Origin: Umbilicaria muhlenbergii
Lineage: Eukaryota > Ascomycota > Lecanoromycetes > Umbilicariales > Umbilicariaceae
Direction of reading: 5' to 3'
NCBI GenBank assembly: GCA_000611775.1
Contig: KK106984.1
Coordinates: forward strand, 2,579,234 to 2,643,233
DNA length: 64,000 nucleotides
Both the position numbers and the translations under genes were made by a program. Below the pieces are notes generated by a model that was given only the letters and a program-made list of their open reading frames with translations, did not search any database and was not told the origin of the DNA. This document shows, piece after piece, positions 1 to 64,000 of this stretch (its first letter is position 1; each line of letters begins with the position of its first letter).

Positions 1-632
1 CAGTGAGGATTATGCTATTTTGTGATCTAAAAATAGTAGCTGTTGTGATCAACACCTTTGCAATTTTTGCATTTTTCAATGCATTGTTGACTTTGTCTCA
101 AACTTGCATTGAGTTGAAGCTTGCTGTTGCAATTGATGTTTTTGATGTTAACAGTACTCTGTGTTCCCTTTGTGTAATCTGCTTAATCTCTTTGATTAAT
201 GCAGACTTTTGCGCCTTTTTAATCACCTCCGTCCATGGTTTATTGCTGTTTTGAGTCAACATTTGCACAAATGTTGATTTTGAGCTTTGGTGTTTTTGGG
301 TGTTTTCAGCATTTTCAGTCATACTCACTGAAAAGTTACCTGATTGAGCTGAATTTTTCATCATAAATTCAGGCCCTTGTTTTGCACTACTACTAAAGGT
401 TTCAGCTTTATCTGATGTAATTTGACTGTTTTGTATTTCCGCGTGCTGTTTTTGACTGTTTTGTGCAAATGCTGCATTTGCAACTTTTTGCTGCAGCTGT
501 TTTTATGCTTGCATTCACACTGTCTGTTTTGCGCAGTAGTAAATTCATTTTAGAATTTATGACCTGAATTTGACTTTGCAAGTGGTGATTTTGCACGTTT
601 GTGTTCAAATTTGCTGATTGTGGACTTTTCAC
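1..632 (-). pseudogene. LINE ORF1 (gag-like) fragment, runs off left edge
   Basis: Read on the minus strand, this stretch gives two frames: a Q/N/S/T-rich N-terminal part (632 down to about 408), then from about 364 a basic segment containing KPWTEVIKKAQKSALIKEI and REHRVLL, followed by VNNALKNAKIAKVLITTATI and NSIILT near position 1. This order (S/T-rich region, 'W-T-E-V' box, REHRVLL strand, later IILT strand) resembles ORF1 of fungal Tad-type non-LTR retrotransposons, an RNA-binding gag-like protein. The match is from memory of the family, not a search. In-frame TGA and TAG stops and at least one frame change break it. The reverse transcriptase ORF would lie left of the window. Upstream on this strand (about 640-1930) lies further AT-rich sequence without a clear frame, probably the 5' part of the same LINE. 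Confidence 0.45.
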
Positions 633-1930
633 ATTTTGTGAATTTTGTGACTTTGCGAGGTGGAAAATTGCCTGATTTAGGTTAAATTTTTGTGATGGGT
701 GTAATGCATTGACTAGATCTCACAGCGCAGAATTTGCTGCTAAATACAGTGATTTCATCATTTTGTGTCTCATTTTTTCACTTTTACTCTGTTCACTGTT
801 TTGCGGATTTTCACAGTTTTCCCCTGAACTTTGAATTCACACCTTCACCGGTTGACTTTCCTGTGAGGAAGTGGTGTTTTGCATTTTTTACCTTGCAATG
901 TGACTTTTTTGATTTGCCTGTGTATTTGCAAGAAGGTGAACGGGCTGTTTTAATTACTATTCATAACAAAGTAGTTTTCCTTTGTTATGAATGCCGCTGG
1001 TGTAGGTGTAGGTGTAGTGCATTAACTACTGTTTTCAGACTTCATGTCTGATGTTATATTCATTATAATGTTTTTTGATGTTTTCCTAATGTTTCAGTCC
1101 TGGTGATATCCTGAATTTACCTCAAGTTTAATATCCCTTCCTTTATAAACTCAAGCACAATCAAGAGTTTAAAGGCCTCATTTTCTATCCCTGATACTCA
1201 GAATAAGTAGCCTGTATGATCCTTAGGAATTTAAGTCTTATAAAAGCCCTTAAAATCACCTGTAGCCTGGCTTAATCTGAGCTTATTCAAATAAAAAATG
1301 ATATAGACTCACTGATCTTTACTCTTTATATATGAAATGCTTGACAAGAGTTCTTTATATCTCTTATACTCAGAATAGCGCTTTCCTTCACAGGCTTTTT
1401 TGTTAATCTGAGCTTTTTACAGTCCTTTATGTCAAACTTAAAAAGAATGACCTTTAGTATTGTAAAGCATGAAGGAAAATGTGAAAAAAGTGAAGTTTCA
1501 TGATATTTTGCAAGGTGATTGATTTAAGGTTTAGTGCTTACACCTCATCAAAATTCTCAAGAACCGTGACTTGACGTGTGTTGAATAATAATAAAGGCAG
1601 AAAGCAGTGAATAACAATGTGTTTTTAATGTTTTGCAATTTATAAAAGCAGTGTAAGATAGATTTAAATTTAATTCTTATGTGACAAATCAAGAAAAAAG
1701 GTATTGTGATTGTTGTGTTGTTGTTTTTGTGATTTTCAATCATTTTTGGTGTGAAGATTGTGACAACTTTGTGATATACTTGAATTCACTGTGCTTTCAC
1801 AACCACCGCTGACTTTGAGAATTGAAAAAAAGGGTTTAAGTCTCTGAACTGAGTAGTTTATGAGGTCTATGACAATGATATATCATATGTGTGACTTGGT
1901 TGCTTTTTGGTTTCTGTGAGAAATTTAACA
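633..1930 (-). other. Probable LINE 5' region, no clear gene
   Basis: AT-rich sequence upstream (on the minus strand) of the LINE ORF1 fragment. It holds only short frames, among them a plus-strand frame at 734-1051 and a minus-strand frame at 1531-1743, neither of which I recognise. The right limit is set at about 1930, because sequence from there to 3037 matches the gag region of the family B retrotransposon at about 16690-17850. The junction is therefore either the LINE 5' end or another breakpoint. No poly(A) or target duplication was found to decide this. Confidence 0.3.
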
Positions 1931-3037
1931 TTCAGTGATCATTTAAGTAGTTGATTTTAAGATTTTAATAAAGAATTCAGTCTTTGTATGAGTTTAACTT
2001 GCAGAGAAGAGTATTTGATTCAGTTTAATAATCTTCTTTGCATCAAGCAGTCATAAAGTCTGATTAATTCACTGACAGCACTTAATGAATTAATAAAGAT
2101 CTTCAGATCTGTCATCATCAGTGTTTAATTATCATTGAATGATGTTGTTCATTTTGTTCAGAAGTTCTCCTATTCAGTATAAATTAAAAAACTCATTCAG
2201 TTCAGTAACATATTATTAAAAATCAGCTTAAAAGGATAAGAAGTTTTTGAATTCTTAATAAAACTTATAAAATTCATCAATGATGATATATTTTTAATCT
2301 GAGTTTTTATAAATTCAGGTTAAATGTTTTAATAATTTAATAATATTTAAATAAGCTGTTCAAGATGCTGAATTCATTTGAAATCTTATATGTTTAACAG
2401 AGTCATTTTTAACTCTTGTTTTCACATATGTTATTTTCATCTGTTCAATGAAGTATTATTCATTCATTATTAATAAATAGTTTCTGATCTTTGTTATTCA
2501 TTCATTATATTTTGAATGATCACTGAAAAACATTAATGAATCAGGAAGCTTTGATAATTTAAATGATTTTTCAACTGTGAGTTGAGAGAAATTAAGTCAG
2601 AGAATGCTTATGACTGTGATTCTTTATTCAAGATATGTTATCACATCAGTTTATTCAATGACTTTTTTCTTCAATTTCTTGTTCTTATTCTTTATTCTTT
2701 CATAATTCACTTATAGTTCTTCATGTGTTTTTATAATGATGTTGATTTCATTCAAGGACTGCTCATGATCAGTGATTAATTATTAAAAAGTAATCATTGC
2801 TTTGAAGGAGTGTTTTTATAAGAGATTAATTAAAGTCTCTGCAGTTGAGATGATCAGAATCTGATTGATCAGGTTTTCATTTAAAGTGAATTGTTCATCA
2901 TTCACAGAAGTCAACAAAAACTCTTTAATTCATGAGTAAACTTCATTATCAATTTCTTTAATCATCATGATTAAGTTTTGATTTTAATTTAATTCTGATT
3001 CTGATTTTGATTTTAATTCTGATTCATTCAAGATGCT
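1931..3037 (-). mobile_element. Family B Gypsy copy 1, gag-region remnant
   Basis: About 1.1 kb here is closely similar, base for base with many transitions, to 16690-17850 of family B copy 2, which lies in the gag-coding half of that minus-strand element. Shared landmarks include TTGATTTTAAG near 1950, the CATCAAGCAGTCATAA stretch near 2041, and runs of GATTCTGATTTTGATT near 3000. It is interrupted at its gag/5'-leader junction by E1, and the sequence resumes after E1 at 9874 up to a family B LTR at 9914-10167. The left (3') half of this copy is missing, replaced by the LINE. Confidence 0.65.
3033..3037. repeat. E1 target-site duplication, left
   Basis: ATGCT, repeated at 9874-9878 directly after the right LTR of E1. 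Five base pairs is the usual Gypsy target duplication. The sequence on either side matches the uninterrupted family B leader at about 17840-17877, so the insertion is confirmed independently. Confidence 0.85.
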
Positions 3038-3265
3038 TATCATGAGTTAGTGACAATTTGAGACTCATGTAAGGCATGCGCCCTACAAGTGACTTAACAG
3101 TGTTAATGAATCACATGAAAACTCTGCACTGCTTAATCTCATCTTCATTCCTTAGTTATTAGTTTTATATAATTAGGATCATATAACCTTTATACATTTA
3201 TATCTCATGCTGTCACATACCTTAACTATACTTCCCTTTTTAGTAAGGGATGTTATAATCTTACA
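3038..3265 (+). repeat. E1 5' LTR
   Basis: 228 bp, equal in length to the 3' LTR. It begins TATCATGAG (the E2 5' LTR has TGTCATGAG, so the canonical TG end was probably lost by mutation) and ends TTACA. Contains a TATAA-like stretch (TTTTATATAATTAGG, near 3164-3178). The following bases GTTTTAATAATTTTACC occupy the primer-binding position and are shared with E2, but are too eroded to name the tRNA primer. Confidence 0.85.
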
Positions 3266-3326
3266 GTTTTAATAATTTTACCTTTCAAAGAATGATGACC
3301 TGAGATAAGATGCAAACTTAAAATCA

Positions 3327-4545
3327 ATTATGTTAAACTTCTGAAGCAGAATGAGACATGATGATGAAGAATTAACAAAATGATCATGAAACATCACTCA
3401 TTTCCTCTGACATCAGTGAAGTGAACCTCATGAGTGAAGGATCCTCAGGTGAAATGATGCACAACATTAATAACAAGATCATGCAAGTGAAATGATAATG
3501 AGATGAACTTCTTAAATAATAAGAGTTGCAGCAGCTCTGAATGAAAGTTCTGACATTAAAAATCAACCTACTTAAAGATCCTGCTACTCATGTTGATACC
3601 TCAGCTGAGAGATTCCTTGACTTTATGAACACTGAGTTCATAATAAGCAAGCACTGCACTGATGAAATGCTGTTAATACAAAATGTACAATCAAGAATTC
3701 AGGCAAAGGAGTTGCTGTTATATCATGATAAGAACATGAAAGAGCACCTGAATTGAATATCAGATGCAAGAAATATCTTTCATTTTAACTCAGCTGATTT
3801 CCCTCATGAGGAGGATAAGATAATTTATGTCATGTAATATTTAAAGAGTGAATCAAAGGAGATGTGACTGCAAGATGATGAGATTAAAGATTATTTCACT
3901 GTTATCTGAGATGATTTTATGAAATTTCTGCTCAACATTATCAAGGACCCTGTGAATCATCAGTTTCACATCACTCAACTATATAATGATGCTGTTCAAC
4001 TACTTCATCAATCAGTTTAAGCTTTCAATAATTATTTAAGCATCTTGAAAGCTCAGTTACCTTCTTACAGTGAAGAGTACATGAGAACTCACTTCTTCAC
4101 AAAATTAAAGTCTGAGGTTCATGCAGCCTTGATGAATTATCAGGACTTACTCATAACTTGAAAAAGAATCATCACTTTAACTGCACACCTGAAGAATAAT
4201 TTACATTTGAGAGGCATCATGAAATTGAAAGCAAATCCTAATACAACAATTATCTTCAGTTGCAAACCTGAGTCACTGTCAAAGCCTGCTGAGAATAAGA
4301 ATCATAAGCCTGATGAGGGCAAGGTGAAGAGCAAATGAGATAATAAATATGAAAGTGAATCAGTGAAGGCTCCTGAAACAAAGAACTTGTCACACATGAC
4401 TTGTTGAAATTGTAATCAGAAGAGACATTATTTCCCTGATTATTCACAACCTGTGAAAAACTTAAACCTGAATAAGACCCTGATTGCAGCTGTTTCAGCA
4501 TCAAAAAATGAAAACACTTCAGTGAAGGCTTTGTATCACTGAGGC
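3327..4545 (+). pseudogene. E1 gag (dead)
   Basis: Structural capsid protein of the Gypsy particle. The longest open stretch is 3541-3753. The frame continues with TGA stops through a helical capsid-like region to a C-terminal zinc knuckle at about 4396-4450, read as C-x2-C-x4-H-x4-Y. The last Cys of the normal CCHC has become Tyr, by a G-to-A change. A charged linker rich in Lys/Glu precedes the knuckle. The gag frame (position mod 3 = 1) differs from the pol frame (mod 3 = 0), so a frame change lies at about 4545-4560. E2 carries the same gag at 29854-31072. Confidence 0.75.
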
Positions 4546-4559
4546 ACTAAACAAAAGTA

Positions 4560-7500
4560 GCCTCAGAGCTTAATTTAATTATTGATGAACAAGATCTTCA
4601 CAATGATGATGTCATACTCATGCAAGCCTTATTGAACATGAGAGCTGAAGTCAATGTGATTTTGCAACATTTTGTTATTAAGCATCAATTGACTCATATG
4701 AAGAGCTTGTTGCTTTAATTTTAATTTTTAAATGATCAGAAGGCTTACTGCTTCAGTGCTTATCATGTGTGTTATCAGCTTATTGACAGTTGAGGACAGT
4801 TTCACAAATGTGAACATGTATTTTATACATTAAATAAGTCAGGATCACCTCTTATCCTTGAACTTCTCACATTAAAGACTGAACATGTGTGAATTGACTG
4901 CAGAATGAAGGCGTGACACTTTAATATTAAAAAGCAGCCTATTAAGTTACAATCATTTAATGAATTCACAAGAGAGATTCAAGATCACTTTGCTGTTTAC
5001 ATCATGATATGAGTCAGTCTGAGTGATGACGCTGCATCAGAGGTGTGCATATAAAGTGTTGAAATAACATAAGCTTTACCTGAAGAGTATGCTGATTATA
5101 TAAATGTGTTTTCAACAGAGAATGCTGACCTCCTTTCATCTCACAAGATCAGTGATCATGCAATTGACTTGAACAGCACAGATTCATCTTATGATTCTTT
5201 ATATAACCTCTTCAATACTGAGTTAAGGGTGTTATGAGAATATTTAAATGACATTTTAATGAAAGATTAAATTCATCATTTCATGAGCTCTGCAGAGGCA
5301 CTCATCCTTTTTGTTTCAAAGAAAGATAAAGGGCTGCACTTATACATTGATTATCAGAGGTTGAATAAGATGATCATCAAGAACAGGCACCTGTTACCTC
5401 TTATAAGTGAAACATTGAATCAACTTAATGAAGTTAAACTATTTATGAAGCTGAATTTGAAGAACATTTATCATCATATTTATATAAAAAAGAGTGATGA
5501 GTGAAAAACAGTGTTCTGTATGCATTATGATCACTTTGAGTATATGATCATGCCTTTCAGATTAGCAAATGTGTTGATTACATTTCAGGTTTACATCAAC
5601 TGAGTGTTGACAGAGCTTGTGAATATCTTTTGTGTTGTCTATCTAGATGACATTCTTATATATTCAGAATTATCAGTGAAGCACTGAGAGCACATTAAGC
5701 AGGTGTTAAACTGACTCTGCTGATTTCAACTTTATGTGAATCTTAAGAAGTGTGAATTCTTCATTATCAAGGTGAAATTCCTAGGGTTTATTATCACAAC
5801 TGAAGGTGTAGTGATGAATTCATGATGAGTGAGCATCATACAGAACTGATTAATATTAAGAACTTTTCAGAAAGTACAAGTCTTCCTGAGCTTTGTGAAT
5901 TTTTATAAACACTTTATTAAGTGTTATTCACAAGTTGCAGCCCCCTTGACAAATCTTATGAAAGATAGCAAGAATGAAAAGAAGTTTAAGCCTTTTAAAT
6001 TCTCACATGACACAAAGAAGGTGTTTAACTGCCTTCATGAGGCTTTTATGATGACATCTATCCTGATTCACTTCAATCTGAAGTTATGAATATGAGTGAA
6101 AACTGATGCATCAATTATTGAGCTCACTGACATCCTGTCTCAGCTGTTGAATAACAGGCAGTGACATTCAATTGCATTTTAATTAAGAAAGCTGTCTTCT
6201 TCAGAGATTTAATATGAAACTCATGATCAGGAGCTTCTTGTCATCATTATGATATTTAAACACTGACATCACTACCTCAAAGGCAGTTGTCATATCATAA
6301 AGGTATTAACTGATTATAACAATTTATGAGGATTTATGAACATGAAGGAATTGAATGATAAGTAAGCATGATGAGTAATGAAGCTCACTGCTTTTGATTT
6401 TAATATTCTGCATCAGTCTGAAAAGATCAACCCTGCTGATACATCATCAAGATGATCAGACTATGAGGATGTTAAAAAGATGAATGAAATTATGAAGAAA
6501 TTACTCTCAACACTTCAGAGAAAGTTAATCACTCTTGTGAATGTATTTTCACTTAAATATGTCTCTATTGTGAGGCAGCTGCTTGCAGGGGTGAGGAGAA
6601 TGACTGAGATTAAAAACCTCAAACTTCAGAAAAAATGCTGAAGAAGTGATGATAAAACATCTGCTCATGATGACTGTGATGTAGCTGTGAAACAGCTTAA
6701 CTCTGTCATTGAAACTGTTGATTGCAAACAATTTATTTCACATGTGATGATAAGAGATCTTGTCATTCATGAAACAACTGATGAAAGTCTGAGTTTACCC
6801 TTAAGGGATTTGATTTGAACTCTACAAAATGATGATTCATTTGTAGAAGTGACACGCAACACTGATTGTACATTAATGAAGCACAAGGTTAAAGCTGAAA
6901 GTTTCTGAAGATTTAACTCTGAAGGCCTTTTATTTCATGAGGAATAAATATATGTTCTGAAAGAAGAGTCTGTAAGAGCAGAGATCTTAAAACATCATCA
7001 TAATGATACCTTAATAGAGCATTTCAGAGTAGAAAGAATTCTTAAATTGATTGACTGTAAATATTATTGAATTGATATGAGTCAAGATGTTAAAGATTAT
7101 GTTGCATCATGTGACATCTGTCAAAGAGTGAAAGTGTTTAAACATCATCTTTATGATGAGCTACAGGTGTTGCCTCAGTCAGAAGAATCATGACAGCAAG
7201 TTATAATGAATTTTATCATTAACTTGCTGTCAAGTAAGTGCAAGAGTTGCATCTATGATGTGATCTTAATGATTATGAATCAGTATACAAAAATGGCTTG
7301 ATACATTCAAATCATGAAAATGATTATAGTAACAGAGTTGACTGACTTGTTCTATGAGGAAATAATATGCTGATTCAGTGTATTGAAAGAGGCTGTCTCT
7401 GATCAGAGATCAGTTTTCACAAGTGCTTTCTGATTAAAAATGTGCTATTATTTAAGGATGAAGCGTCAGCTAAGCATCATCTTTCACTCATAAATGAATG

Positions 7501-8280
7501 AACAGACAGAATGACAGAATTAAATCTTAAAACATTATTTTCACTGTTACTGCTCAGATGAACAAGACAACTGAATAAACTTTTTACCTCTGACAGAATT
7601 CACTTATAACAATGAAACACAAGCATCAATAAGATGCAGTTCTTTTTATGTCATGTATATTTATCATCTGAAAGTAAGATTCAAAGTTGAGAATGACTTC
7701 AGGAAAGAAGAGGTACCTGCAGTTAAAAATCAGATGAAATGATTTCATGACATATAAAAAGCACTGTCACAATGATGAGAAAATGTAGTTAATTCTCAGA
7801 CAAAATATTATAATGTCAAACATAAACTCAAGACCTATAATGTGAGAGACTTGATAATGTTATTCATGAAGAACTTATGACAGAAGCGCTTGAGCAGAAA
7901 ACTGTCTTACAAATTCATTAAATTATTTCAGATTGAAGACTTAATAAGGAAGCAGATCTACAGATTAACTTTACTGCTCATTTATCAAATTTATAATGTC
8001 TTTCACATCTCTTACTTGAAGTCATATCAGTGCAGAGCTGATGATCACTTTAAATCATTGCTGTCACCTCTGAAGCTAATTGATGATGAAGAAGAATATG
8101 AAGTCAAAGAGATTTTAAATCATCAGAAATTCAGAAATGAAATCTTGTACAAAGTGAGATGAAAGGGTTGATCAGAAGAATATGATCAATGAGTGTTAAA
8201 AAAGAACTTAAAAGGTGTGCAGAAAATGCATGCAGCCTTTAACAACAAATTAGAAGAGTGCAGGAAGAAGTGATTTAAAA
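4560..8280 (+). pseudogene. E1 pol: protease, RT, RNase H, integrase, chromodomain (dead)
   Basis: One frame holds for about 3.7 kb without a net frameshift. The RT palm is at about 5270-5670, with the catalytic YLDDILIYS box at 5640-5666 (both Asp intact). The FVNFYKHFIK and APLTNLMK boxes follow at 5895-5970, and RNase H motifs (KTDAS, ETHDQELL) at 6090-6245. The integrase zinc finger H-x-H...C-x2-C is at about 6990-7130, integrase core remnants to about 7600, and a C-terminal domain to 8030. A chromodomain at about 8090-8270 reads EEYEVKEIL...ILYKVR then TGA-K-G-TGA, where Trp is expected at both stops. Between 5283 and 6460 I count 16 TGA, 3 TAA and no TAG. Function lost; identity secure. 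Confidence 0.85.
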
Positions 8281-9645
8281 AGATTTAATTAACATCATAA
8301 AAACACTCTTTCCTGATTTTCCTCAAGAGGTTTTACAGATTTTATTAAGGCCTTATAAGTGATTTATGACAAGAGTTAAGGATGACAAGTTCACTAAAAA
8401 AGATGAATCATCAGAGAAGCACATGAGAATCATAATATTATTATCATCATTACAGCAGACCAAAGCAGGCAAAAGGAATTATTATATAAAATCAGCAAAA
8501 CACTGAAAAAGAATAATTTACTCATCATCATCATTTTCATTTTTCTTCTTATCTTCTTCATTCTTCTCTGATTTCTTTAATCCCTTTGACTTCTCAAACA
8601 GAGAGAAGTCCTCATCATCATTATCATCATCATCATCAACAATGACAGGCAAATGCTTCTAGAATAAAATGCACATTAGCTGATCATAATCATCATGTCA
8701 AGGGTGAAGAGAAGGGGATCAAACTGAATATCACATGATATTTAAGATACCTTCAAGTGTGTTGTTGCTGCACTTAATCTGCTTAAGCAGCAGAAGACTG
8801 ATCTTGATAATAAACTTCAATTTAAACAGCTTCTGATGACAGCTGATAATGCAGAGATGCACTGTAATCTTCTTGTTATAACACTTTTGACGCGCGCCTT
8901 GAGAGCAGTCAGGAGAGCAGGCAGAAGAGTGTTAATATTAACTCTGTTGATTAAATGTATCAATGTGTTTACCTTGCAGGTGAACCGCGCAGGAATTTTA
9001 AATCATCAGTGAGATACAACAGGTGAGCATGTTAAACTTATCAAAAGACAAGCTTTATGAAGATTTACACAGTATGTGCATTTAATATTCACATGAGTAT
9101 CACAAACCTGCATGATATCTTCAGTGAAATGATGACTGCATCAGAGGCAAAATAATTTAATGAGGTGCACATGAGGGCCTGTGAAGCACTTGACAATGAG
9201 TGAGTGTTATATGATGTCATGCATTAATCACACATGTGCAGAGCCTGTTTCTCTGACTTACAAGCATGATGACTGATGTTGTGATGATGTAAATGATGTG
9301 TTTTGAGAGTGCATTAATGATGTTACAGTGATGAGTCACTGCTCTGGCAAAAGTTGATGACAGAAGGCTGAGGAGTTGACAGTATTTATATTTTAAAACT
9401 TTTATTGTGATATCATCATCTGAGGCCTTGATTATGTTATCATAATGCTGTCATGTTGACACTGTCATGACTTCACTGTCATCTCTTCACTTCTCAGGGT
9501 TTTCACTGTCATGTGACAAGCTCACTTCATTATCATCTCACTTAATCAGTGCTGATGTCATGTCATTAATTCAACTGTTAATTGAGTCTTTTATCAGTCA
9601 CTCACCTTTCTGCATCAGAGGGCTGCTGCATAAAGAGGAGGTAAT
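8281..9645 (+). other. E1 long 3' region, no recognised gene
   Basis: About 1.36 kb between the chromodomain and the 3' LTR, conserved in position in E2. It contains a Ser/Phe-coding (or, on the minus strand, Asp/Glu/Lys-coding) simple-sequence stretch at about 8515-8645 made of TCATCA and TTCTTC runs. It also contains one of the few surviving CpG clusters (GACGCGCGCC near 8890). Purine-rich DNA adjoins the LTR. No known domain. Confidence 0.5.
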
Positions 9646-51414: not shown

Positions 51415-51883
51415 TTAACCCTGAACCTGAATGTCCTCTGCATCCTCCAGTGGTTGCAACCTATAGGAAGAGAGAAGCTGAGGGATTCACCTTTAAATCA
51501 TTATGTATGAGTGAGAGCTGTGCACTTATCACTCAACTTGTTGAGTGTTATTCACTGACAACTATCGTGATTGACGCGCTCAACAAATGTGACTCAGGAA
51601 AATGACTGAATCTGCTGAAGATGTTGAAAGCAATCCTTCAAGAGTCCTCAGGCTTAATGAAGATCTTTGTGTTGAGTCGTGATGACCAGAACATAGTGTG
51701 CCACCTGCAAGAGTACCCTAATCTTAAGTTAGTGTCTGATAGAAACATGGATGATATTGCATCATTTGTTAAAGCTGAAACCCAAGACCTCATTAAGAGA
51801 AGAGAACTACTCTGTTTCAGTATCAACAAAGAGGATTTGAAGGAGGAAATCATTGATCAGGTCATGAAAGGTGCTAGCAGCAT

Positions 51884-51943
51884 GTAAGTGTTACATCAGG
51901 ACCTCAAGCCTTGTCTGATGTGCTAACACTTCTAATGAACCAG
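51884..51943 (+). other. Spliceosomal intron in the NLR pseudogene
   Basis: 60 nt, GTAAGTG donor, branch-site-like TGCTAACAC at 51921-51929 and CAG acceptor. Splicing joins AT|G TTC CGC TGG, giving ...GASSM-FRWASLQ..., which matches the usual continuation in this NLR family. Size and branch motif are typical of filamentous ascomycetes. Confidence 0.85.
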
Positions 51944-52733
51944 GTTCCGCTGGGCAAGCTTGCAATTGCAAAGCTTGTGTGAAATGAAAACTGATGAAGC
52001 TATTCAAGAGAGGATTGGGTGACTGCCACCTAAATTGAAAGACCTTTATCTTGAGCAATATGAGAAGGCCACCAAGTACGCAGCCGAGGCTGATCACCAA
52101 ATCACAAGAAATGCATTCAGTTGGCTCATCTGTGCTCAAAGGAGATTGAACTCAACAGAATTCCTTACCGCGCTATCAATGACTCCAGGGCGACATTTCA
52201 GTCAAGTAACTATAGATCAGGTCCTGGATATGTGCTGCAACATGATAATCTTTGACAAGGCTCTAGATACATTTTGATTCGCACATCTATCAGTCAGGGA
52301 GTTGTTAGAAAAGCGGCCAGAATTCAGTAACACAGCAACAAACTCCTTGGCTGCAGAGATATACCTCTCTGAGCTGCTAAGCGCTGTTGGCAATCCAAAG
52401 ACGGAAAGGTTGCTCTCAAAACAGGGACAGCCTTTAAGCGACTCAAAGTGTTCACATATTCTAAGCCCGTATTCAACTATATACTGGGCTAGGCATTGTC
52501 AATTGGCAGCTGAACAAGGACTAACGGTTCACTCAGCCGCTTGTTTCTTGATTTCTTGTCTCATGCACTAGATCCAACGCCAGCATTTGTCCTCTGAATT
52601 AGTCAACTTCGAAAAAAAGTGAGCCTTGAAGGAATTGATCAGGAATTGAAAAGTCAATTAAAGGATACTAAAGCTTCACCAACTACAACACTCTTTGTTG
52701 CATGCTCTTTCAATTTCTCCAAAATAATACAAG

Positions 52734-52744
52734 ATCAGATTACT
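52734..52744. repeat. MULE target-site duplication, left (11 bp)
   Basis: ATCAGATTACT, repeated perfectly at 57652-57662. MULEs make 8-11 bp duplications. Deleting 52745-57662 gives a continuous NLR reading frame across the joint (QDQIT | T...). Confidence 0.95.
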
Positions 52745-53120
52745 GGCCTGTCTCAGGGCCGTCACACCTGGGTAGCCACGCCAAAGTGAATTCAGCTACT
52801 CAGCGCCTCCATGCCAGGGTGATCCAGCCGGCTCACATACTAAATTGCTAGCGAAAAACTAGACTCTGCTAGGCAGCTGGTGTCGCCACACCGCCTCAAA
52901 TTTTCGAACTTATTTTCCAGCCATGGTTTTCGGCCATGGTTTTCGGCCATATGGAACGCTTTTTGGACGTTATACAGGTAGGTGAATGGAACACATAACA
53001 TAGAACTAATAGCTTATAGAGATGTCCGCCTCGCCGCCTCGCCGCCTCGCCGCCGCCACCCCCTCACTGCCGCCACCCTACATAACAGCTGGCTCGTCAA
53101 TGCCGCTGTCGCCAACTATC

Positions 53121-53136
53121 ACCCCCCCCCCCCCCC
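53121..53136. repeat. Poly-C run
   Basis: Fifteen consecutive C in the MULE 3' noncoding part. With the nine-G run at 53510-53518 it shows that CpC/GpG survives here, in contrast to the rest of the window. Confidence 0.9.
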
Positions 53137-53188
53137 AAAATCTGAGTAGGCCTCAGCCAACGAAGTGCTGCCCAAATTTCAGCTCGGC

Positions 53189-56100
53189 TTACTCAAACTC
53201 GGAGGCCTTGATCTGGGAGATCTGCTCCTTCCAGCCTGCCTTCTCAAGACCTCACCGGTGTTGCTCAGCGCTCTTTGCCTGCTCCTTCACCTTCTTCTCA
53301 CTCTCCTTCACCTGCTTCTTGCCCTGCTTCTCTTTCTCCTTCGCCTGCTTCTTCTCCTGCTGCTCCTTCTCCTTCGTCTGCTTCTTTGCCTGCCTGCCTT
53401 TCTTCCTCTCTTCTTTCTCGAGCGCGTCCTTTATGCGTTGAAGCTCGCGGGCGTTCTGTGACGCGAGCTTCCTACTTGGTTCCTTTGCCCCGGAGGATTG
53501 CCTTGTGAAGGGGGGGGGCTCACTGTCACTGGAAGAGGAGGAGGAGGACTCAGAGGACTCAGAAGAAGGGTGAAGAGGCTCCTGCTCATTGTCAGAGGTG
53601 GAGTTCAGAGGAGGCTGAGGATGCTCAGAGGAAGGGAGGAAGCCCTGCTCAGCTGGGGAAAGAGGGGTGAACAGGCTGAAGAGGTTGCTGGGGAGTGAGA
53701 GGAAGGGCTGCCCAGGGGTGGAAAGAGAAGGAGGAACCTCAGGAAAGGAAGAGGAGGGTTGACTGAGGGTGGAAGCCCCACTAGCCTTCATTGAGGAGAG
53801 GTTTTGAAAGCCATCCTCACCGCTGTCCTCACCACTGTCCTCGCCGCTGGCCTCACCGCTGGCCTCACCGCTGGTGTTGTTCTTTGCCTCACCGCTGGCC
53901 TCACTGTCTCTGCTGTCTTCCTCCTTGATGTCCTGTCTCTGGCTCTGGCTCCGCTGCTGAGAGTACACCCACTGTCAGGGAGACTCAGGAAGAGACCAGT
54001 CACTGTCACTGTCATGTTGCTGGGGCTGGGGCTGGCTTTTAGGCTGGACTCCAAGGAAGATAACACTATCATCATCAACAGGTGGCAAGGGCTGGCTCCT
54101 GGGCTGGACTTTCATGAAGATGACACTGTTGTCAGCAGTGTCATCATTGTGGGGGTCCCTGGTACTGCTCAGGGCTTGTTGCTGGTCCAATTCCTGCTGC
54201 TGAAAGAACCTTGCCGCCCTCTCCCTGTTCAGCTCAACCTGTCTCTGTGCCCTGGCAGCGTCTCATTCCTTCACCTCCTCTTCTTCTTGAGAGGTCATGG
54301 CCCGCTTCCTGGTGCTCCGTTTGGCCTTGTACTGGCAGTGAGTTGAAGGAGGAAGGGGAGCTGGAAGCTCTAGGGGTAGAGCAGCATCCCTAACCCCTTT
54401 GGCCTGGAATCTCTCAGTGACTCAGGCTGTCACTGTGCTTAGGACAGTAGCAAACTCCCTTTGCTGCAGGACATCAAGTGAGTCAATGGCGTCAATGGAT
54501 TGTATGGCTGTTAATGTTATTAATTCTCATTCATTGTCTCAGAGACAGTCTCCATGTCCTCAATCAAAGGCTTTCTGTCAAAGATGAGTCTCCAAGGCCT
54601 CATCAGGGGTTAGGGCCCGGTTAAACATCATCACTCAGTCTGGAGGAGCCACAGCGGGGCTGTCAATGAGTCAACAGGGGTGGAGAAGAGACAGGGGCAG
54701 TGGGATTCCTTCTTCCACTGCTGCAAACATTCAATGGTGACACAGTAGGCCATATCTCAGGGGTAAAGCGCATGCTGACAAGCAACTAGGACTCTCTGAC
54801 TTTGGCTCAACCTCTGAACCGCTTGCCCTGTCCTTTAAGACGCCGTTACAGAGATGTTCAACCCACACTTTGATCTTCTCCCACTCAGGGCTAAGAAAGT
54901 TGAGGACGTAATGGGTGGTTCAAAAAAGGTAGTGCTTGAAGCCTGCTTGATCAAGCAATCTGAGAGTGGTGTGACAGCTTTTGTCTTCCTCTCTGACCAA
55001 TGTACAGCTCAGGGCAGCGATTTCCTGAGTCAGATGAGCGCAGGCTTCAGAGAGAGACAGCTGTTGATGCAGATTCTTCTTGTTCTTGTGGTGACTGCTC
55101 TCCCCACACTGGGTTGAGTGAACCTCAAGGTTAGGGTAGGTTTGAGTGTATGCTCTGACAAATTGATGCTCCTTGCTGAATCAATTCTTGTTCAAGTACT
55201 CCTTCTCCTTGTCTTGCACGTTTGAAAGCAAGGCTGCCTGATTAACGCGGAGGGTATTCAGATCAGAAGACTTGATGTACACTCATATGAAGTCAGCAAT
55301 TTCTCTCTGCTGAGCTTCAGTATACCGCCCTGCCTGGAGCAGTCTTAGCTTCATGTTTTCAGCAGCGTGCTGCTCACAAAGCTGAAGAATTACCCCCCCT
55401 TCATTAGGGTTTCCACCGGCCTGGACTTGAGCAGTCTCCTTTTGAGCCATATGAGCAATGAGACCTTTCACCTGGTCTCTGACAAGAACTTGAGGCTTAG
55501 AGCAATTGTTGTACCAGTATAAGTTGTCCATACATTCATCCATATAGTTGAAAGCCTCCGCTGACTCAGAAAGCATAAAGGAATAGCCAAAATTGAAGGA
55601 TTTTCCAGTATTATGTATTCCCACAACGCTTGAAAGGGGCATACAAAGCTGATTGATGTTGAATGTAGCATCAGTAATTGCCACAAAGCCTCTGATGAAC
55701 CTCTGAGCTAGGGTTATCTGCTCTGAAGAGCAAAAAAACACCTGCTCCACCACCCGTTTTGTCTGCTCACCAGTTGCCGGATCTACCACATACTTCACCT
55801 TAATGCGGACATGGAAACCCTCCATTTCCAGGCTTTGAATAAGCAAATCCACCTGCTGCTGCTGCGAGAGCTTCCCTTGAGATCAAATCAAGTTATAGAA
55901 ATCCTTGTTTTCTATAGAAAGACCTTCCTGGTAAAGCATTTGACTGAAGGCGCGGTGAGACTGTCCTGCAGCGCGGTGGGTTATAGCCCTAGCTACCATC
56001 AGGGCAAAATCAGGGTGTCAGGGCTTTGTCAGGTGGTGGCTGAATGAGTTCAGCATAAGGGGGTGATTATGAGTATTGTTGGTAATGCCTATAAGCCACA

Positions 56101-57425
56101 CTCTCTCATCAGGGTTGGATGGAACCGCACAGTAGGAGGCATAAACAGCATATGAGCTGTGAGCATTCAGTGTACAGAACTCACCAGGTGCTAGTTCAGA
56201 ATAGGAAAGGTTATGCTTAGCAACAGCACAGCCTTGTGAAGGTAACTTTTATTAGTGAATCAACCTCACAAGAGAACTCAGTCAATGAATCTCACTCTCA
56301 GCACTTTATGAAAGTGGTCAGAGGAGTTAATATCATTGATGACACCTCATGAAGGTGTGATTTAACAATGAACTTGTGAAGGCAGCTTCATCAAGGTGAC
56401 TGCTTCATGTGAATCAACCTCATAAAGAAACTTAGTTAATGAATCTTATTCCTGACACTTTATGAAAGTGATCAAAGGAGTCAACATCATTGATGACACC
56501 TTATGAAGATGTGATGTAACAATGAACTTGTGAAGATAGCTTCATTGAGGTGATTACTTCACATGAATCAACCTCACAAGAGAGCTCAGTCAAAGAACAT
56601 CATTCTCAGCACTTCATAAAAATGATTAAAGGAGTTAACATCATTGATGACATCTCATGAAAATGTGATTCAACAATGAACTTATGAAGACAGCTTCACT
56701 GAGGTGACTGCTTCACATGAATTAATCTCATAAAGAAACTCAGTTAATGAATATTATTCTTGACACTTCATGAAAGTGATTAAAGAAGTTAACATCATTG
56801 ATGATGTCTCATGAAGATAACTTTATTACAGTGATTGCTTCATGAGACCTTCCTCAGACTGATTAACTTTAAAAAGAATATATAATGAGGTCAGAGCATG
56901 TTTTATTTTCTTTTTTAATAATAATTCTCTACCTACTAACAATATCATACTATTGTGAATCATCAACCTTAAGTTTAAATCATTATTGTCACATAACTTT
57001 ATAATTCCTTAGTTAAAATATCACCTCATGATAATATGCTTACATGAGTAGTCTTTTTAATTTGTTTTTATCTCTCTTTTTTATTCTTCTTTTATTAAAT
57101 TTTAAGAATTCTTTGTCTCCTTGTTATGATGCATGCATTTAAGTTAAATTCTCTTCTCAGTCATACTTTTCACTACAAGAACAAAGCTTTGATTAAAAGC
57201 TCAGTTTGTAAAATGCTTCTTAACCTCTTCACAGTCACTCACCTGCTCATTAAAGTTAAAGTGTAAAAGATGAGAGACAGAAAGCTGCTCAAGTACTTTA
57301 AAAAAAGTGTCAATGTTCTCAGAGACAACAAAGGCTGAGGCTTGCATACTGATGATGAAATCTGAGTGTAAAAGAGCTGTATTTATTATCTGAATAATGT
57401 TATGAGAGGCTTTCAAAACCCTCAA
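53189..57425 (-). pseudogene. MULE transposase, interrupted by solo LTR
   Basis: Would cut and paste the MULE in the nucleus. One minus-strand frame runs from ATG at 57425 to TAA at 53189-53191, the solo LTR (892 bp with its duplication) being removed without a frame change. N-terminal WRKY/GCM1-FAR1-like finger: WLKC-type Cys near 57150, YASYC near 56130, NNTHNHP near 56085. MULE catalytic domain: ITDATFNI (first Asp, about 55670), VLVRDQVKGL (second Asp, about 55478), C-x2-H in LCEQHAAEN near 55370. The C-terminal half is hydrophilic: two DDSVIFLGVQP-type motifs (about 54060-54160), SGEASGED repeats, a Ser/Glu run, then a KEKEQQEKKQ coiled coil (53255-53420). From 56157 to 53192 I count 16 stops, all TGA. 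Right of the LTR, stops include several TAA. Confidence 0.9.
56158..57044 (+). mobile_element. Solo LTR of E6 family inside the MULE transposase
   Basis: 887 bp, the reverse complement of LTRs A/B in orientation, TGTGAGCATT...GCTTACA on plus. It is 154 bp longer than A and B, exactly one additional tandem unit. Flanked by TGAGC (56153-56157) and TGAGT (57045-57049), a 5-bp duplication with one C/T difference. Removing the LTR and one flank joins transposase codons in frame (KDYS | YAVYASYC). Its left end is less mutated than its right. Confidence 0.85.
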
Positions 57426-57958
57426 GTTTTATATAATAAACTGCTTTATTTTCATTCCCTTGAAATACATCTGTTCTTGAATTTTCTTGCAGTCTGATCA
57501 TCTTCTTTAAGCTCTTCATGACAGTTGAGCATGCACAGGCATCATTCACCTGTCATTAAATTTTGATGTGATGATGATACCTCATGTGACTTACACTTTA
57601 CTGAGTTGAGTCTTGTGTGACTACTCAGGTGTGACAGCTCTGAGACAGGTCATCAGATTACTACATAAACTTTTCAATCAAACTTTATTAATAATTACAG
57701 TTTGACTTCTCTACAGGTGACTGTGAATCACAGCAGTTATGAAGTTGTTTCAATGTTGATATCTGAAGAGCATATAGAAATCACAAAGAATGTAATCAAG
57801 ACAGCAGCAGAGAACTAAAAAAGTGAAAAGAAAATCATGACACTTCTACTTGACTGACAAGAAGCAGACATTCAGATTATAAAAGATGTGATTAAAGCAA
57901 CAGCAAGAAACAAATATAATGAAAAAAAAATCATGATACTTTTACTTAACTGATGAGG

Positions 57959-58925
57959 CATCCGCAACTTGGCAGCCCGCTCAAAAATAAGGTTTTAGTT
58001 AATAGTACTTTATGTGCTCAGAGCACTCTCTGAGCAGTAAATGAGCTCATACAAATTTTACACTTTAAATAACTATTATACCTTTATGAATAATAAGAAA
58101 CTTTTTATTGAAAAGTTTTAAATCTCTTTATTCTGTACACTTTACAAACTAAAGATTTCTTCATAAGTTTTAATTTGCAATAGTTATGAATTAAAAAACT
58201 TTTAACTAATTATAAATATATTAGCATATTGAATAACTATTGCGCTTTTATACTTATAATATAACTTTCAGTTTATAAGTTGTAGAGAATAAGCTGTTTA
58301 AGAGTTTTCTTATACAAAGTTTCTTTTTATGTGTTGTTGTTGTTGAGTTATTCAAAAAGTCATTAAAAGTCTATTTATTAATTTGAAAGATTTTTCGCTG
58401 TTGAAAACTTGAATTAAATATAACTTAACTTGAATTAAATATAACTTAACAACAACTGCAGTTATGAAGAAACTTTTAATTTAACATTAATAGATAATAC
58501 TGTTTTTTATAATTTATGCATTGAAAGTTTCTTCATATCTGTTGAGGTGCAAAAGTTATTAAAGTGTGTAAATTTTTAAGTGATGAAAATCTTGAAGTTC
58601 TTTAAATATTCAGAACTCAACACTTATACAGTGCTTTCAGACTCAACAAATCATGATTTTTTATTGCAGAAAAGTGAATTTTAGCAAAAGTTTACTTATT
58701 ATAAGTTTTACTGTTATTATAACACTGTGTGTGTACTTGTTTAAACAATTGTTTTAATAATGTTTTTTTATCACAAAATTTTGATGTTCCGCTCAAGATT
58801 TAAGGTTGAGCTCAAAGTGCTCAGAGGGTGCTAAGAGTGACTGTTAGCTGAGATATGAGATCAGAAGCTCAGAGCGCTCAAAGTGCTAAAAATTAACTCA
58901 GAGTTAACTTGCTAAATTGCTGATG
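57959..58925. mobile_element. Short DNA element (DE), copy 2, in the NLR
   Basis: 967 bp, same orientation as 44199-45318. Ends CATCCGCAACTTGGCAG and, on the minus strand, CATCAGCAATTTAGCAA (13 of 17 matching). It has lost about 172 bp covering the right arm of the internal hairpin and gained a duplicate of CTTGAATTAAATATAACTTA near 58410-58448. Flanked by GG (57957-57958) and AG (58926-58927). Deleting the element with one dinucleotide restores the NLR frame through TGA-TGA-GGA-GCA-GAC. Confidence 0.7.
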
Positions 58926-59480
58926 AGAGCAGACATTCAGATCACAAAAGATGTGATTACTGCAGCTGCAATAAATGAGCAGGAGGAAGTCTTGCAACTT
59001 GTTAATAAACAGCTTAAAATTCTGTCTTTTAAAGAGAGATGAGTTTCAATCACTCAGTTTTATAATGCAGCAAAGACTGAAGATGTGAATACAATCTGAA
59101 GATTATTAATATTTGAAATTAAACCTGACCTTAAAAGCTTTAAAAATGTATCACCTTTTTGAATAGCAGCAGCAAATGAGAACCTTGTGATAATCAAAAT
59201 ACTGCTTAATACACAAGTGATCAACATTAATTTAAAAAGCACAGCTAGATGAGCTTCTGTATTTTAAGCATCAGCAAAGAATCATGAACATATTCTGAGT
59301 CTGCTGTTAAAAGCAAAGGTAAATTCTAGCTTTGCAGATGAAGATGATCAAACATCAATTTCAATAATCAAGCAGAGTAAGCATGACAAGGTTGTAAATA
59401 TGTTAAGCAGTAAATGAGTTATTGAAGATGAAAACTTCCTCTTTTACCCTAATATGCAAAAGCAGATATAACAAAAGATA

Positions 59481-60159
59481 ATAACACAGTATCATTATAA
59501 TTTACTTAAAAACTCTTGTTTCTGACTCACATTATACTCATCAAGATCACTACTATGGCTCTGACAGGTTTAAATATGACAGTGAGCTTAAAAGATAAGA
59601 GGGCAGAGGCAGAGGTTAAAAAACATTCATAATGAATCTTACCTCAGTTAACTCAGACCTCATTCTGAAAAGATTTGTTAACATGCATCACTCTGACAAA
59701 ATCATGAAGTTAACTTGTTCAAATAACTTTTCTTCATAAGGTCTGAGTGTGTTATTGGCAAATATGCTCTGAAATCACTTCACTTAAAGTAATTTAATTT
59801 AATGCAGTGCTCAGATATATCTCCTGTGAATATTTAAGAAATACATGTAAATTACTGAAACACTTATAAAATAAAAAACATATGAGTCATCTACAGAGAA
59901 ACATAAGCTTAAATCATAATCACAAGTCATGTAAGTGCATTATATGAGCAGCTGCAAAGATTTATATTCTTTATTATTAATTTCACCTGACCTCAACTTT
60001 TAACATTTAAGAAAGCAAAGTCTTTAAACTTCTGTAAAAAGAAATGCTCTCTTGAGTCTGATTAAGCCTCACTTATGTCATGTCAGAGTCAGTGTCAGTA
60101 TGTTTAAATAATGTTTTAAACATACTGACATTTTTATTCTCCTCTTCCTCATTCAAGTT
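59481..60159. other. AT-rich stretch, nothing recognised
   Basis: Downstream of the NLR ankyrin region. Short stop-laden frames only. A minus-strand reading leads into the unit at 60160 (SVKSFINLNEEEENKNVSMF), so part of it may belong to that unidentified gene. Confidence 0.4.
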
Positions 60160-61047
60160 GATGAATGACTTAACACTTATCAGACGCTTTGAGGATCTGT
60201 GATTAAAAATCTCATGACAGTGAGCTTGTGATCTTGTGTTATATTAGTCAACTGTAGCTCCTCAAGTTTAATAATTCAAGTGATACTTGCTTGTTGATTC
60301 AACATCTTGTGCTGCAGTTGAAGGAGAAGTTCTCACTGATATTCTTTTATCATTAAGAGCCTGATCAGTCTTGAGTGCAGCATTAATCACACTCAGAGCA
60401 TGAAGCTGAGCCTCTGTGAAAAGAGATGAAGAAGAGAAGAAGAAAAGAGTTTATCATGATGATTTTGAAATAATAATGAAAAGCTTTTAAGTGAACAGTC
60501 CTGCTATGATCTTGATGTCATTATCAGAGTCATCATCAAGGTTGATAACATTGTCATTCAACTTCAGAGTGATAATCTTGTTCATGAGCTCTCAGTTCAA
60601 GCTGATGAATGACTCAACACTTATCAGACACTTCAAGAATTCATGATTAAAAATCTCACAGCAGTGAGCTTGTGATCTTGTGTTATATTAGTCAACTGTA
60701 GCTCCTCAAGTTTAATAATTCAAGTGATACTTGCTTGTTGATTCAACATCTTGTGCTGCAGTTGAAGGAGAAGTTCTCACTGATATTCTTTTATCATTAA
60801 GAGCCTGATCAGTCTTGAGTGCAGCATTAATCACACTCAGAGCATGAAGCTGAGCCTCTGTGAAAAGAGATGAAGAAGAGAAGAAGAAAAGAGTTTATCA
60901 TGATGATTTTGAAATAATAATGAAAAGCTTTTAAGTGAACAGTCCTGCTATGATCTTGATGTCATTATCAGAGTCATCATCAAGGTTGATAACATTGTCA
61001 TTCAACTTCAGAGTGATAATCTTGTTCATGAATTCTTTGAGAGTAAA
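60160..61047. repeat. 444-bp tandem duplication
   Basis: Units 60160-60603 and 60604-61047. The first about 70 bp differ, the remainder is practically identical, so the duplication is recent compared with U2 or has been homogenised. Confidence 0.9.
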
Positions 61048-61480
61048 TTTGCTCTTCATCTTGAACTTAATGAAAACAGTTAAATATGACTTTTCTGTTG
61101 ACTGAGGATTCTGCTTACTTTATTAAATGTTATAATGATAATCATGTTCTTTACTCATTAACATTCTTGTAATCTTGTCTTCAATACTCTCAGTGACTTT
61201 AACTTTGCATCAAGATTTCAAGAATTGTATGACTTTTCTCCTCTGAACTCTTCACATAAGGTGCTTCAATTGTTGAGGTTCATCAGTGCAGCAACAACAT
61301 TCATCACATGATTCTCTGTGTATGAGAGTTTGATAATGCCTTGCAGCAACAAGTGCCTGATATGAGCTCAGATGAGGCTGATGTAGTGTTGAATGAAATG
61401 CATTTATAAATGATTGATCCTCACAACATAACAGAATGCATTAATGTTAATGACATTAAAAACATTCTGTAGATCATGAG
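60160..61480 (-). pseudogene. Unidentified minus-strand coding-like unit U1 with 444-bp tandem duplication
   Basis: Minus-strand frames with TGA at likely Trp positions: RHLLLQGIIKLSYTENHVMN and VVAALMNLNN at about 61270-61340, LKSLRVLKTRLQEC near 61170-61200, then NVINLDDDSDNDIKII and SSSLFTEAQLHALSVINAAL. The last part is repeated because 60160-60603 is duplicated at 60604-61047 (444 bp = 148 codons, in frame). A diverged relative, U2, lies at 62145-63002. I do not recognise the protein. Coding character is inferred from repeat conservation and codon-sized duplication. Confidence 0.45.
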
Positions 61481-61663
61481 GTAAGATGTGAGAATTTTTC
61501 TTTAAAGTTAACATATTGTGAGGTGATGTCTTGAAATAGAATATAAAGTTGAATATTTAAATTTTGTAGATGATAAAAGTTGCTTTTCAATGATAAATAA
61601 GATTTTCATGACATGCTATTAATGATGAGAGATTTGTTAAGAATGTTGATTGCATTTGTTGAG

Positions 61664-61837
61664 AATGCTGACAGTGTTGTGAGGTGAAGTAATTAAGTGA
61701 AGTAACAGGAAAAAGTAGAATGTGTGATTTTATATATTAATGAATATAAAAATGCTGACAGTGTTGTGAGGTGAAGTAATTAAGTGAAGTAACAGAGAAA
61801 AACAGAATGCATGATTTTACACATTAATGAATATGCA
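61664..61837. repeat. 87-bp tandem duplication
   Basis: Units 61664-61750 and 61751-61837, both starting AATGCTGACAGTGTTGTGAG and containing GTGAAGTAATTAAGTGAAGT. 87 bp is a multiple of three. Lies between units U1 and U2. Confidence 0.85.
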
Positions 61838-62144
61838 CTCTGAAGTGACATAACATCCTGAAAAGGTAAGGGATGAAATTGATGAGGCTCATATACATTT
61901 ATTTAACTCAGTTATCAGCTTGTATTATCATCCTCACACTCCTCAATGTTTTGATCAGTGTTACTTCAATTCAGCGCTCTTCAAAATCCCCTCAATTCAG
62001 TGTCAGTTAATCATGAATGCATCATTCAGTTCAACTAATCATTCAGCTGCTGCTAAAATTAGTCAGTGTCATATTTCTCATGACATTGACTGTGTTTTAA
62101 GCATATTGACAGCCTCATCCTTCACCCCCCTCTTCAAGTCAACA

Positions 62145-63002
62145 GATGATTTAACATTTATTGAACACTTTAAGAATCTGTGATTAAAAATCTCATGATA
62201 ATGAGTTTATGATTTTATGTTATGTTAATCAACTGTAGCTCCTCAAGTTTAATAGCTCAAGTGATACTTGCTTATAAATTCAACACCTTGTGCTGCAGCT
62301 GAGGAAGAAATTCTTATTAACACTTTTTTATCACTGAGAGCCTGATCAGTCCTGAGTGCAGCATTAATTACATTTAAAGCATGAAGCTGAGCCTCTGTGA
62401 GAAGAGATGAAGAAGAGAAGAGAGAGAAAATTTGTAATAATAATTTTAAGATAATAATAAGAAGCTTTTAAGCAGATGATTCTGTTATGATCTTAATATC
62501 ATTATCAGAGTCATCATCAAGGTTGATAACATTATTGTTTAACTTCAGAGTGATAATCTTGTTCATGACTTATTTAAAGATCAATGTACTTCTTATCTTA
62601 AATTTAATGAAATCAGTTAAGCAGGAGTCTTCTGTTGACTGAGAATATTATTTATTTTATTAAGTGTGATAATGATAATCATGTTCTTCATTTATTAACA
62701 TCCTTGTAATCTTGTCTTCAACACACTCAGTGACTTTAACTTTGCATTAAGATTTTAAGAATTATATGACTTTCCTTCTTTAAACTTGTCATATAAAATG
62801 CTTCACTTATTCAGGTCTGTCAGTGCAGCAACAGCATTCATCACATGATTCTTCATGTACAAAAGCTTGACAATGCCTTGCAGCAACAGATGCTTAATAT
62901 GAGCTCAGATGAAGCTTGCATAATGTTAAATGTAATGCATTTGCAGATGAGTGATCCTCACAACATAACAAGATGCATCAATGTCAATGACATTAAAAAA
63001 GT
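62145..63002 (-). pseudogene. Unidentified unit U2, diverged copy of U1
   Basis: Homologous to 60604-61480 without the tandem duplication. Minus-strand peptides include HALNVINAALRTDQALSDKK, NVINLDDDSDNDIKIITESS and KITRMLINEEHDYHYH. The plus-strand open frame at 61920-62180 overlaps its right side and is probably a shadow; the minus strand continues there as KDEAVNMLKTQSMS. Confidence 0.45.
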
Positions 63003-63457
63003 TTCATGAGTCATGAGAGACTTGATCAGGGTTCTTGTTTAACTTTGATTATTTCAGCATGATGAACAAGGCCTGATCTTGAGTTTTTTACAGCATTGAA
63101 TATAAGTTTGATTTAGAATGAGATGATATGCATATGTTGATGACAATCTGATGATTTCATGAAAGGTCAAAGTTGAATGTGATGATTCAGTTCAGCTATT
63201 TGAGGGCTCAGTTTATCAGCTTTGACCAGGTGACTCAACATCAATAAACTTAATATATTAAATATTCAGTTTTTCAGTGATGTGTTTTATGAATCATTTA
63301 TCATTCATTACTTTGTATTATACCTGTAAGTATATTAGTGTGTGAACAATAGTGATGCACAAGCAGTACTTTCATACATCACTGATGTAATATTAAGCCC
63401 TCATAAAGATAGTGTGAATTATTATTCTTTTAAGATTTTATGATGAGTTCTACTTAT
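63003..63457. other. AT-rich spacer, nothing recognised
   Basis: About 450 bp with no frame longer than a few dozen codons and no repeat shared with the rest of the window that I could see. Confidence 0.4.
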
Positions 63458-64000
63458 TTAGCAATGTAGAACACTGTCTATAGTATCACATTTATTAACA
63501 TCACAGTGATTCAAGCTTGAATCAATTATAAAAACATTAATTTGTGCAGAGTCATACCTAGAATAATCACCTTTTATCATTTTCAATATCATCAGCCTCT
63601 TCAAGCTTGAATCAATTATAAAAACATTAATTTGTGCAGAGTCATACCTAGAATAATCACCTTTTATCATTTTCAACATCATCAGCCTCTTCATCACTCA
63701 ACTCTTTGAATAATTCATTGTATGCTTCATCATATGACTCATCCTCTGAAATATCATCTCTGAGCAAGCTTAACAAGATCTCATTTTTCAACAGTATAAC
63801 TTTATCAACTGTGACTGCCTCATCATTACCTGTGTCTTTGAGGTCAGATTCAGCCTCAATAATATTCACAGCTGATACAGTTCTCTTCATTCTCTTAATC
63901 TTATTAAATCTTTCTCTCAGCTTAATCTTGATTGCAAATCATCACCTCACAGAGACTTGTTTCACTTTGATTATTGCATCTCAAATATTCATAAAGCTGA
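63458..64000 (-). pseudogene. Unidentified acidic reading frame, runs off right edge
   Basis: Minus strand. A basic segment (KIKLRERFNKIKRMKRTVSA, about 63880-63930) is followed by an acidic open piece 63657-63890 (NNIIEAESDL-type, DDISEDESYDEAYNELFKEL, DEEADDVENDK). It then enters a 90-bp tandem duplication, which is open in a second frame (KMIKGDYSRYDSAQINVFII, 63458-63697). Frame change or intron unknown. No family recognised. Confidence 0.35.
63511..63690. repeat. 90-bp tandem duplication
   Basis: Units 63511-63600 and 63601-63690, TCAAGCTTGAATCAATTAT to CATCATCAGCCTCT, differing at very few bases. Exactly 30 codons, frame-preserving. Confidence 0.9.

Follow-up and report, generated by a model that had tools for sequence, protein, structure and literature searches.

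Studies of repeat-induced point mutation (RIP) in fungi usually describe its target choice in terms of dinucleotides. A k-mer-based survey of 1,239 fungal genomes from 2025 reports, in the part of its text available, that RIP-like defences share a preference for CpA, and the four classes holding its 130 strong-signature species do not include Lecanoromycetes (PMC12543289). Other contexts are described in Microbotryum and other Pucciniomycotina, where TpCpG is hypermutated (to TpTpG in Microbotryum; PMC5381629), and CpG-biased mutation is reported in Tuber (CpG with CpA) and Aspergillus nidulans (CpG and CpA; PMC4352252, PMC2621366). Here, we analyze a 64-kb stretch of Umbilicaria muhlenbergii (contig KK106984.1; G000:C4:2579234-2643233), called the window throughout, from a genome of 34.8 Mb in seven contigs; its repeats carry C-to-T mutations with a three-base target.

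Among lichen fungi, RIP has been described in Cladonia rangiformis, which has RID and DIM-2 homologues and low-GC repeat compartments; the words CpG, CCA, dinucleotide, and trinucleotide are absent from the available portion of that text (PMC12542154). Likewise, the main text of a transposon study of Umbilicaria pustulata contains none of six RIP and methylation terms (PMC8773270), and searches of open-licence papers turned up no mutation rule of the type C-S-A (S = C or G) or C-N-A. We consider it probable, at roughly 70%, that a RIP-like process directed at repeats hypermutates them C-to-T in this genome, and that the two bases 3' of each cytosine determine the target.

Context of C-to-T changes in aligned copies

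Direct rates come from genome copies of a Copia family, aligned with lightly mutated copies as references. Between L066 and the heavily mutated L070, C>T affects 319 of 1317 C and A>G 23 of 1678 A, with 7 transversions; C:G to T:A transitions thus far exceed other changes, as in Neurospora-type RIP, and C>T is far above T>C. The changes fall mostly in CCA (88/102), CGA (42/54), CTA (23/49), CGT (25/62), and CGG (18/46), followed by CCG (14/46), CGC (12/42), CAA (30/131), CCT (18/112), CTG (12/109), and CTT (13/136), while CCC (4/57), CTC (6/100), CAT (6/102), CAC (3/60), and CAG (5/109) are rarely affected. Within every CpN class, an A at the next position raises the rate (Fisher tests): CCA exceeds other CpC (36/215; P = 1e-33), CGA other CpG (55/150; P = 2e-7), CTA other CpT (31/345; P = 7e-10), and CAA other CpA (14/271; P = 5e-7). 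The original prediction that repeats here are mutated in a preferred context other than CpA is therefore borne out, as only 44 of 402 CpA sites changed in this young pair. Its proposed rule, CpG plus CpC, does not hold, because CCC and CCT are little mutated, CCA and CGA most, and CTA next.

The same contexts lead when counts are restricted to sites whose next two bases stay unchanged in the target copy. From L067 to L070, all 66 CGA and 108 of 119 CCA sites changed, followed by CGT (37/44), CGC (9/16), CTA (27/52), CGG (4/9), CCT (21/91), CAA (17/111), CCC (2/17), and CCG (0/5). In the milder copies L066 and L068, respectively, the counts are 38/86 and 47/84 for CGA, 35/125 and 45/124 for CCA, 14/72 and 12/74 for CGT, 4/52 and 5/52 for CTA, 5/106 and 5/105 for CCT, 0/57 and 0/57 for CCC, and 0/46 and 0/40 for CCG. 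Logistic fits over positions -5 to +5 (two Copia fits) give a log-odds spread of 2.4-2.9 at +1 and +2, with the order G, C > T > A at +1 and dominance of A at +2; the 5' context was rejected as a determinant, the spread being at most 0.94 anywhere but +1 and +2. Seven further Copia copies with 74-77% identity keep the leading contexts (CGA 0.50, CCA 0.46, CTA 0.36, CGG 0.32, CAA 0.28, and CCC 0.13), but less sharply, owing to general divergence (A>G likewise reaches 0.11).

The +1/+2 rule also appears in a second family and in repeat pairs inside the window, whose relevant features are as follows.

1-1914, + strand: moderately mutated copy of unclassified repeat family 1 (alignment of 28 copies)
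1932-3031, + strand: copy of a second repeat family, with an 84% identical copy at 16690-17816 (window repeat pairs)
3040-9540, + strand: heavily mutated retrotransposon copy, with an 87% identical copy at 29567-36067 (window repeat pairs)
5316-5795: reverse-transcriptase match (PF00078) with 5 TGA, inside the 3040-9540 retrotransposon (profile match)
29567-36067, + strand: second copy of the 3040-9540 retrotransposon (window repeat pairs)
22302-22775 (G000:C4:2601535-2602008), - strand: reverse-transcriptase match (PF00078) with 5 TGA and 2 TAA (profile match)

For family 1, corrected rates with three references used in turn are 0.497-0.523 for CCA, 0.394-0.641 for CGA, 0.216-0.288 for CTA, 0.093-0.128 for CAA, 0.100-0.151 for CCT, 0.048-0.056 for CCC, and 0.204-0.335 for other CGN. 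With L026 as the reference, all 27 copies show CCA above other CpC and 27 show CTA above other CpT, while CGA exceeds other CpG in 26 and CAA exceeds other CpA in 25. Family alignment, a check suggested alongside the original prediction, thus places the C>T context at +1 and +2 in both families, and CpA is not dominant in young copies.

Within the window, 34 pairs of repeats measure 200 bp or more; as some of these overlap, their counts are not independent. At sites with unchanged flanks, C/T differences occur at CAA in 307 of 711 cases, CCA in 15 of 17, CTA in 123 of 213, and CGA in 2 of 2, and +2 = A has the highest share within each CpN class. By class, the differences number 542 at CpA, 526 at CpT, 207 at CpC, and 17 at CpG; with CGA and CCA already exhausted, those that remain are mostly at CpA and CpT. 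CpA had been described as abundant and, in two inverted repeats, unchanged; it is abundant (observed/expected, O/E, 1.44 in the window), but the CAA differences in these old pairs mean that it is a weak and late target, not a spared one.

Internal stops lean the same way: the 55 RVT_2 matches hold 231 TGA, 97 TAA, and 4 TAG, and, of the 150 RVT_1 matches listed, the first 60 hold 289 TGA, 46 TAA, and 7 TAG. This TGA excess is consistent with CGA>TGA and TGG>TGA, and supports rather than proves the rule since base composition favours TGA too.

Composition of the window and the genome

Composition was compared in the following segments, the two AT-rich parts being counted together (57,000 bases).

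2001-51300, unstranded: C-S-A-depleted AT-rich sequence derived from repeats, first part (composition)
56301-64000, unstranded: C-S-A-depleted AT-rich sequence derived from repeats, second part (composition)
2461-2640, unstranded: sample behind the original prediction

In the sample, cytosine is followed by A 26 times, T 18, C once, and G never, exactly as had been counted by eye. Dinucleotide O/E, which was to be checked next, is 0.10 for CpG, 0.57 for CpC, 1.44 for CpA, 1.20 for CpT, and 0.63 for TpA in the whole window, and 0.04 for CpG and 0.45 for CpC in the AT-rich sequence. The claim that CpG and CpC are nearly gone is thus right for CpG and only partly so for CpC: CCA is down to 35 sites (O/E 0.04), whereas CCT is normal (1047 sites, O/E 1.10). 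CpC loss is mostly that of CCA and of CCG (0.05, shared with CpG), with CCC partly reduced (0.35); CGA stands at 0.00, CTA at 0.22, and TCA at 2.47 (5201 sites). C makes up 0.007 of C+T in YCA and 0.001 of it in YGA, vs 0.29 in YCT and 0.30 in YCC. Since the choice of target depends on two bases following the C, this mutation escapes RIP measures of the usual two-base kind (two ranges recorded across the window beside these indices, their measures unlabelled, are 0.47-1.18 and 1.01-2.08). The window repeats stay near 31% GC, which would follow from only part of the cytosines lying in good targets.

That the element ancestors simply had little CpC and CpG is a reading to which we give almost no credence. 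The relatives of the window's Mutator-like element (MULE) are moderately CpG-poor, e.g. L014 with CpG at 0.52. However, for the Copia family this explanation is refuted by mild copies that retain CCA and CGA: L067 has CpG 0.94, CpC 1.18, CCA 1.42, and CGA 1.15, compared with 0.26 for CCA and 0.00 for CGA in the heavy L070, and the polarity of the changes again speaks for loss.

Across the genome, 16 samples of 3 kb, sorted by GC rather than copy number, fall into two groups. Taken together, the 12 with GC > 0.42 have normal composition (CpG 0.90, CCA 1.16, CGA 1.00), and the 4 AT-rich samples show depletion; three of these have GC up to 0.36, and the fourth is L051 at 0.387 (CpG 0.19, CCA 0.15, CGA 0.00). 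Multi-copy repeats carry the mutation; the GC-normal DNA sampled does not, nor does one Copia present as a single copy, L065 (G000:C3:351355-355074), whose reverse-transcriptase region lies in a long open frame of normal composition (CpG 0.96, CCA 1.14). A heavily mutated Copia, L075, lies 3.3 kb away (CpG 0.18, CCA 0.29). No DNA-level relative of L065 was found, and it is therefore unusable as a mutation reference.

One AT-rich repeat pair in the window, 44199-45318 and 57959-58925 (86-97% identical), includes the kilobases at 44001 and 58001 with the window's highest TpA/ApT (1.18 and 1.10) and lowest CpA excess, and is possibly another kind of element or has another history. Searches of the window found neither a tRNA nor an Rfam family reaching the gathering score.

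The MULE region, candidate methyltransferases, and competing explanations

The least mutated part of the window is its MULE region, with the following features.

51415-56157, - strand: MULE region, lightly mutated, GC 0.49, with CpG 0.35, CGA 0.21, and CCA 0.99 (composition)
55283-55882, - strand: open frame encoding a MULE transposase domain (PF10551; profile match)
51346-51414, + strand: left inverted-repeat arm, the more mutated arm (arm alignment)
56158-56226, - strand: right inverted-repeat arm (arm alignment)

Units of a 154-bp tandem repeat in inverted orientation flank the region (50682-51414 and 56158-57044), and related units occur at 36493-37018. In the first 55 aligned columns of the arms, read by eye, six positions differ by C/T: CpC accounts for three (CCT, CCT, CCA) and CpT for the other three (CTA, CTT, CTA), with none at CpG or CpA. 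The absence of CpA changes agrees with what had been proposed; the five differences all at CpC or CpG, and a lightly mutated left end, do not, since five of the six derived bases lie in the left arm. No coordinates had been given for the ends, and the arms aligned here may differ from those meant.

The original prediction allowed for either a different specificity or two overlapping processes. The first, a specificity other than CpA, agrees with the results above. The second would combine CpG decay, e.g. through CG methylation maintained by DNMT5, with a separate process acting on CCA and CTA, and we judge it distinctly improbable. The low CpG of the MULE region beside its normal CCA, the rates of CGT, CGG, and CGC above that of CCC, and the presence of a DNMT5-like gene all suggest it. 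But there is no need for two processes, since the +2 = A rule holds at CpG sites as well: mild Copia copies changed at 55 of 115 VCGA sites vs 45 of 320 VCGB (TCGA 30/88, TCGB 3/116), and the mutated C in TCG/CGA is the one preceding GA. Moreover, the losses of CGA and CCA climb together across the copies. No full-length close copy of the MULE was found in the genome search. Its comparison with L014, at only ~71% identity, fits one rule (CGA 10/25, CGT 6/15, CCA 11/49, CCC 2/53, and CAC 0/31), though CAT (7/21) is off it. A CpG-only second process, suggested by the MULE composition, is weakened accordingly, and another comparison, L015, has too few sites for a reading; a minor CpG-only component may exist.

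RID- and DIM-2-type methyltransferases were to be looked for in the same genome, and a PF00145 search finds four places, among them RID-, DIM-2-, and DNMT5-like genes. The RID-like protein (L010) is 69% identical to its Lasallia pustulata counterpart, and its frame has PCQ and EQT motifs and one in-frame TAA at a putative intron; we take EQT to mark RID/Masc1. The DIM-2-like protein (L009) carries PF00145, with a BAH match just below cut-off, is 83% identical to an Umbilicaria vellea protein (coverage 81%) and 78% identical to an L. pustulata protein, and matches chain 9bap (E = 4e-173), apparently Neurospora DIM-2 judging from PMC11315935. These protein similarities mark the host as a lichen former, probably from Umbilicariaceae. 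L011 is DNMT5-like and matches chain 7r76, there named Rad8 (E = 8e-64). The fourth place, L012 (G000:C1:6525876-6529178), is a broken relative of L011 with interrupted frames, perhaps a mutated duplicate of this gene.

In Neurospora DIM-2, R1175 intercalates into DNA, and effects of sequence context await study, according to the available part of PMC11315935. In this column, L009 and its six closest relatives among the listed homologues (P0033-P0038) have phenylalanine. Among the 55 motif-bearing sequences of 121 (120 listed homologues plus L009), there are 19 F, 17 L, 11 I, 5 R, and 3 others; given such wide variation, we draw nothing from this target-loop phenylalanine as an explanation.

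The main rival, which we hold to be unlikely, is slow vegetative decay: a DIM-2-type heterochromatin methyltransferase would mark C-N-A in repeats, and 5-methylcytosine (5mC) would deaminate during growth, without sexual-stage RIP. The DIM-2-like gene is in keeping with this, as is Zymoseptoria, where the available text reports that Dim2 raises mitotic C>T in repeats and that its methylation prefers CGA and CGC among CG contexts (PMC8016269). However, the mutations there fall at CpA, with CpG lacking high rates, the opposite of what we see. Damage is graded among the copies, which also fits slow decay, but repeated rounds of RIP would likewise yield it.

We favour the RIP-like process, which would mutate repeated DNA C-to-T on both strands where the base at +1 is G or C and that at +2 is A (C-S-A, more broadly CpNpA), in the young-copy order CGA >= CCA > CGT > CTA > rest and with little weight on the 5' side. 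The change would be made by a RID- or DIM-2-class C5-methyltransferase, directly or via 5mC deamination, and the target recognition of this enzyme would give rise to the +1/+2 rule. Such an enzyme probably sets the C-S-A target; as a guess, RID-like has even odds, DIM-2-like is somewhat less likely, and anything else is least likely. A more tentative idea, just short of even odds, is that a single enzyme of these classes in the lichen lineage reads both +1 and +2, giving a three-base RIP target to which dinucleotide indices are blind and which other lichen fungi may share.

Several points weigh against this reading. CpA, the defining context of RIP, is a poor target, and the CpG contexts CGT, CGG, and CGC are also well above CCC from L067 to L070, i.e. 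CpG has some pull of its own. The MULE region combines low CpG with normal CCA, and in family 1 CGA is scarce, each copy offering no more than 9 sites when L026 is the reference. Strand tracts are absent: in four comparisons between copies, mutated neighbours share a strand no more often than resampled sites. L065 may be spared for its youth instead of its single copy.

Comparison with known systems

The process works like RIP: as in the Neurospora type, C:G to T:A transitions appear to occur mainly in repeats, and the genome has RID- and DIM-2-like genes. Unlike that type, it shows no CpA preference but A at +2 with G or C at +1, and TpA is low (0.63) rather than raised. Because CpA was tested and is not the preferred context, we do not place it within CpA-type RIP.

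With the TpCpG hypermutation of Pucciniomycotina, as far as described in the available text (PMC5381629), it shares a three-base target that includes CpG. However, here the C before GA is mutated, not that of TCG, non-CpG sites (CCA) are hit as well, and the host is an ascomycete. Plain decay of CpG methylation differs in that the third base matters here, CCA (108/119) and CGA (66/66) being well above CGC (9/16) at sites with unchanged flanks. Strong mutation of CpG is common to Tuber and A. nidulans, but here CCA is as strong as CGA and CpA is weak, whereas those reports, in the parts available, tabulate dinucleotides (PMC4352252, PMC2621366). Cladonia rangiformis is likewise a lichen fungus with RID and DIM-2 homologues and low-GC repeats, although its repeats peak near 16% GC, according to the available text, compared with about 31% here (PMC12542154). 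Should the three-base rule be the work of a RID- or DIM-2-type enzyme, its comparison with CpA-preferring relatives would make it directly testable how these enzymes choose cytosines.

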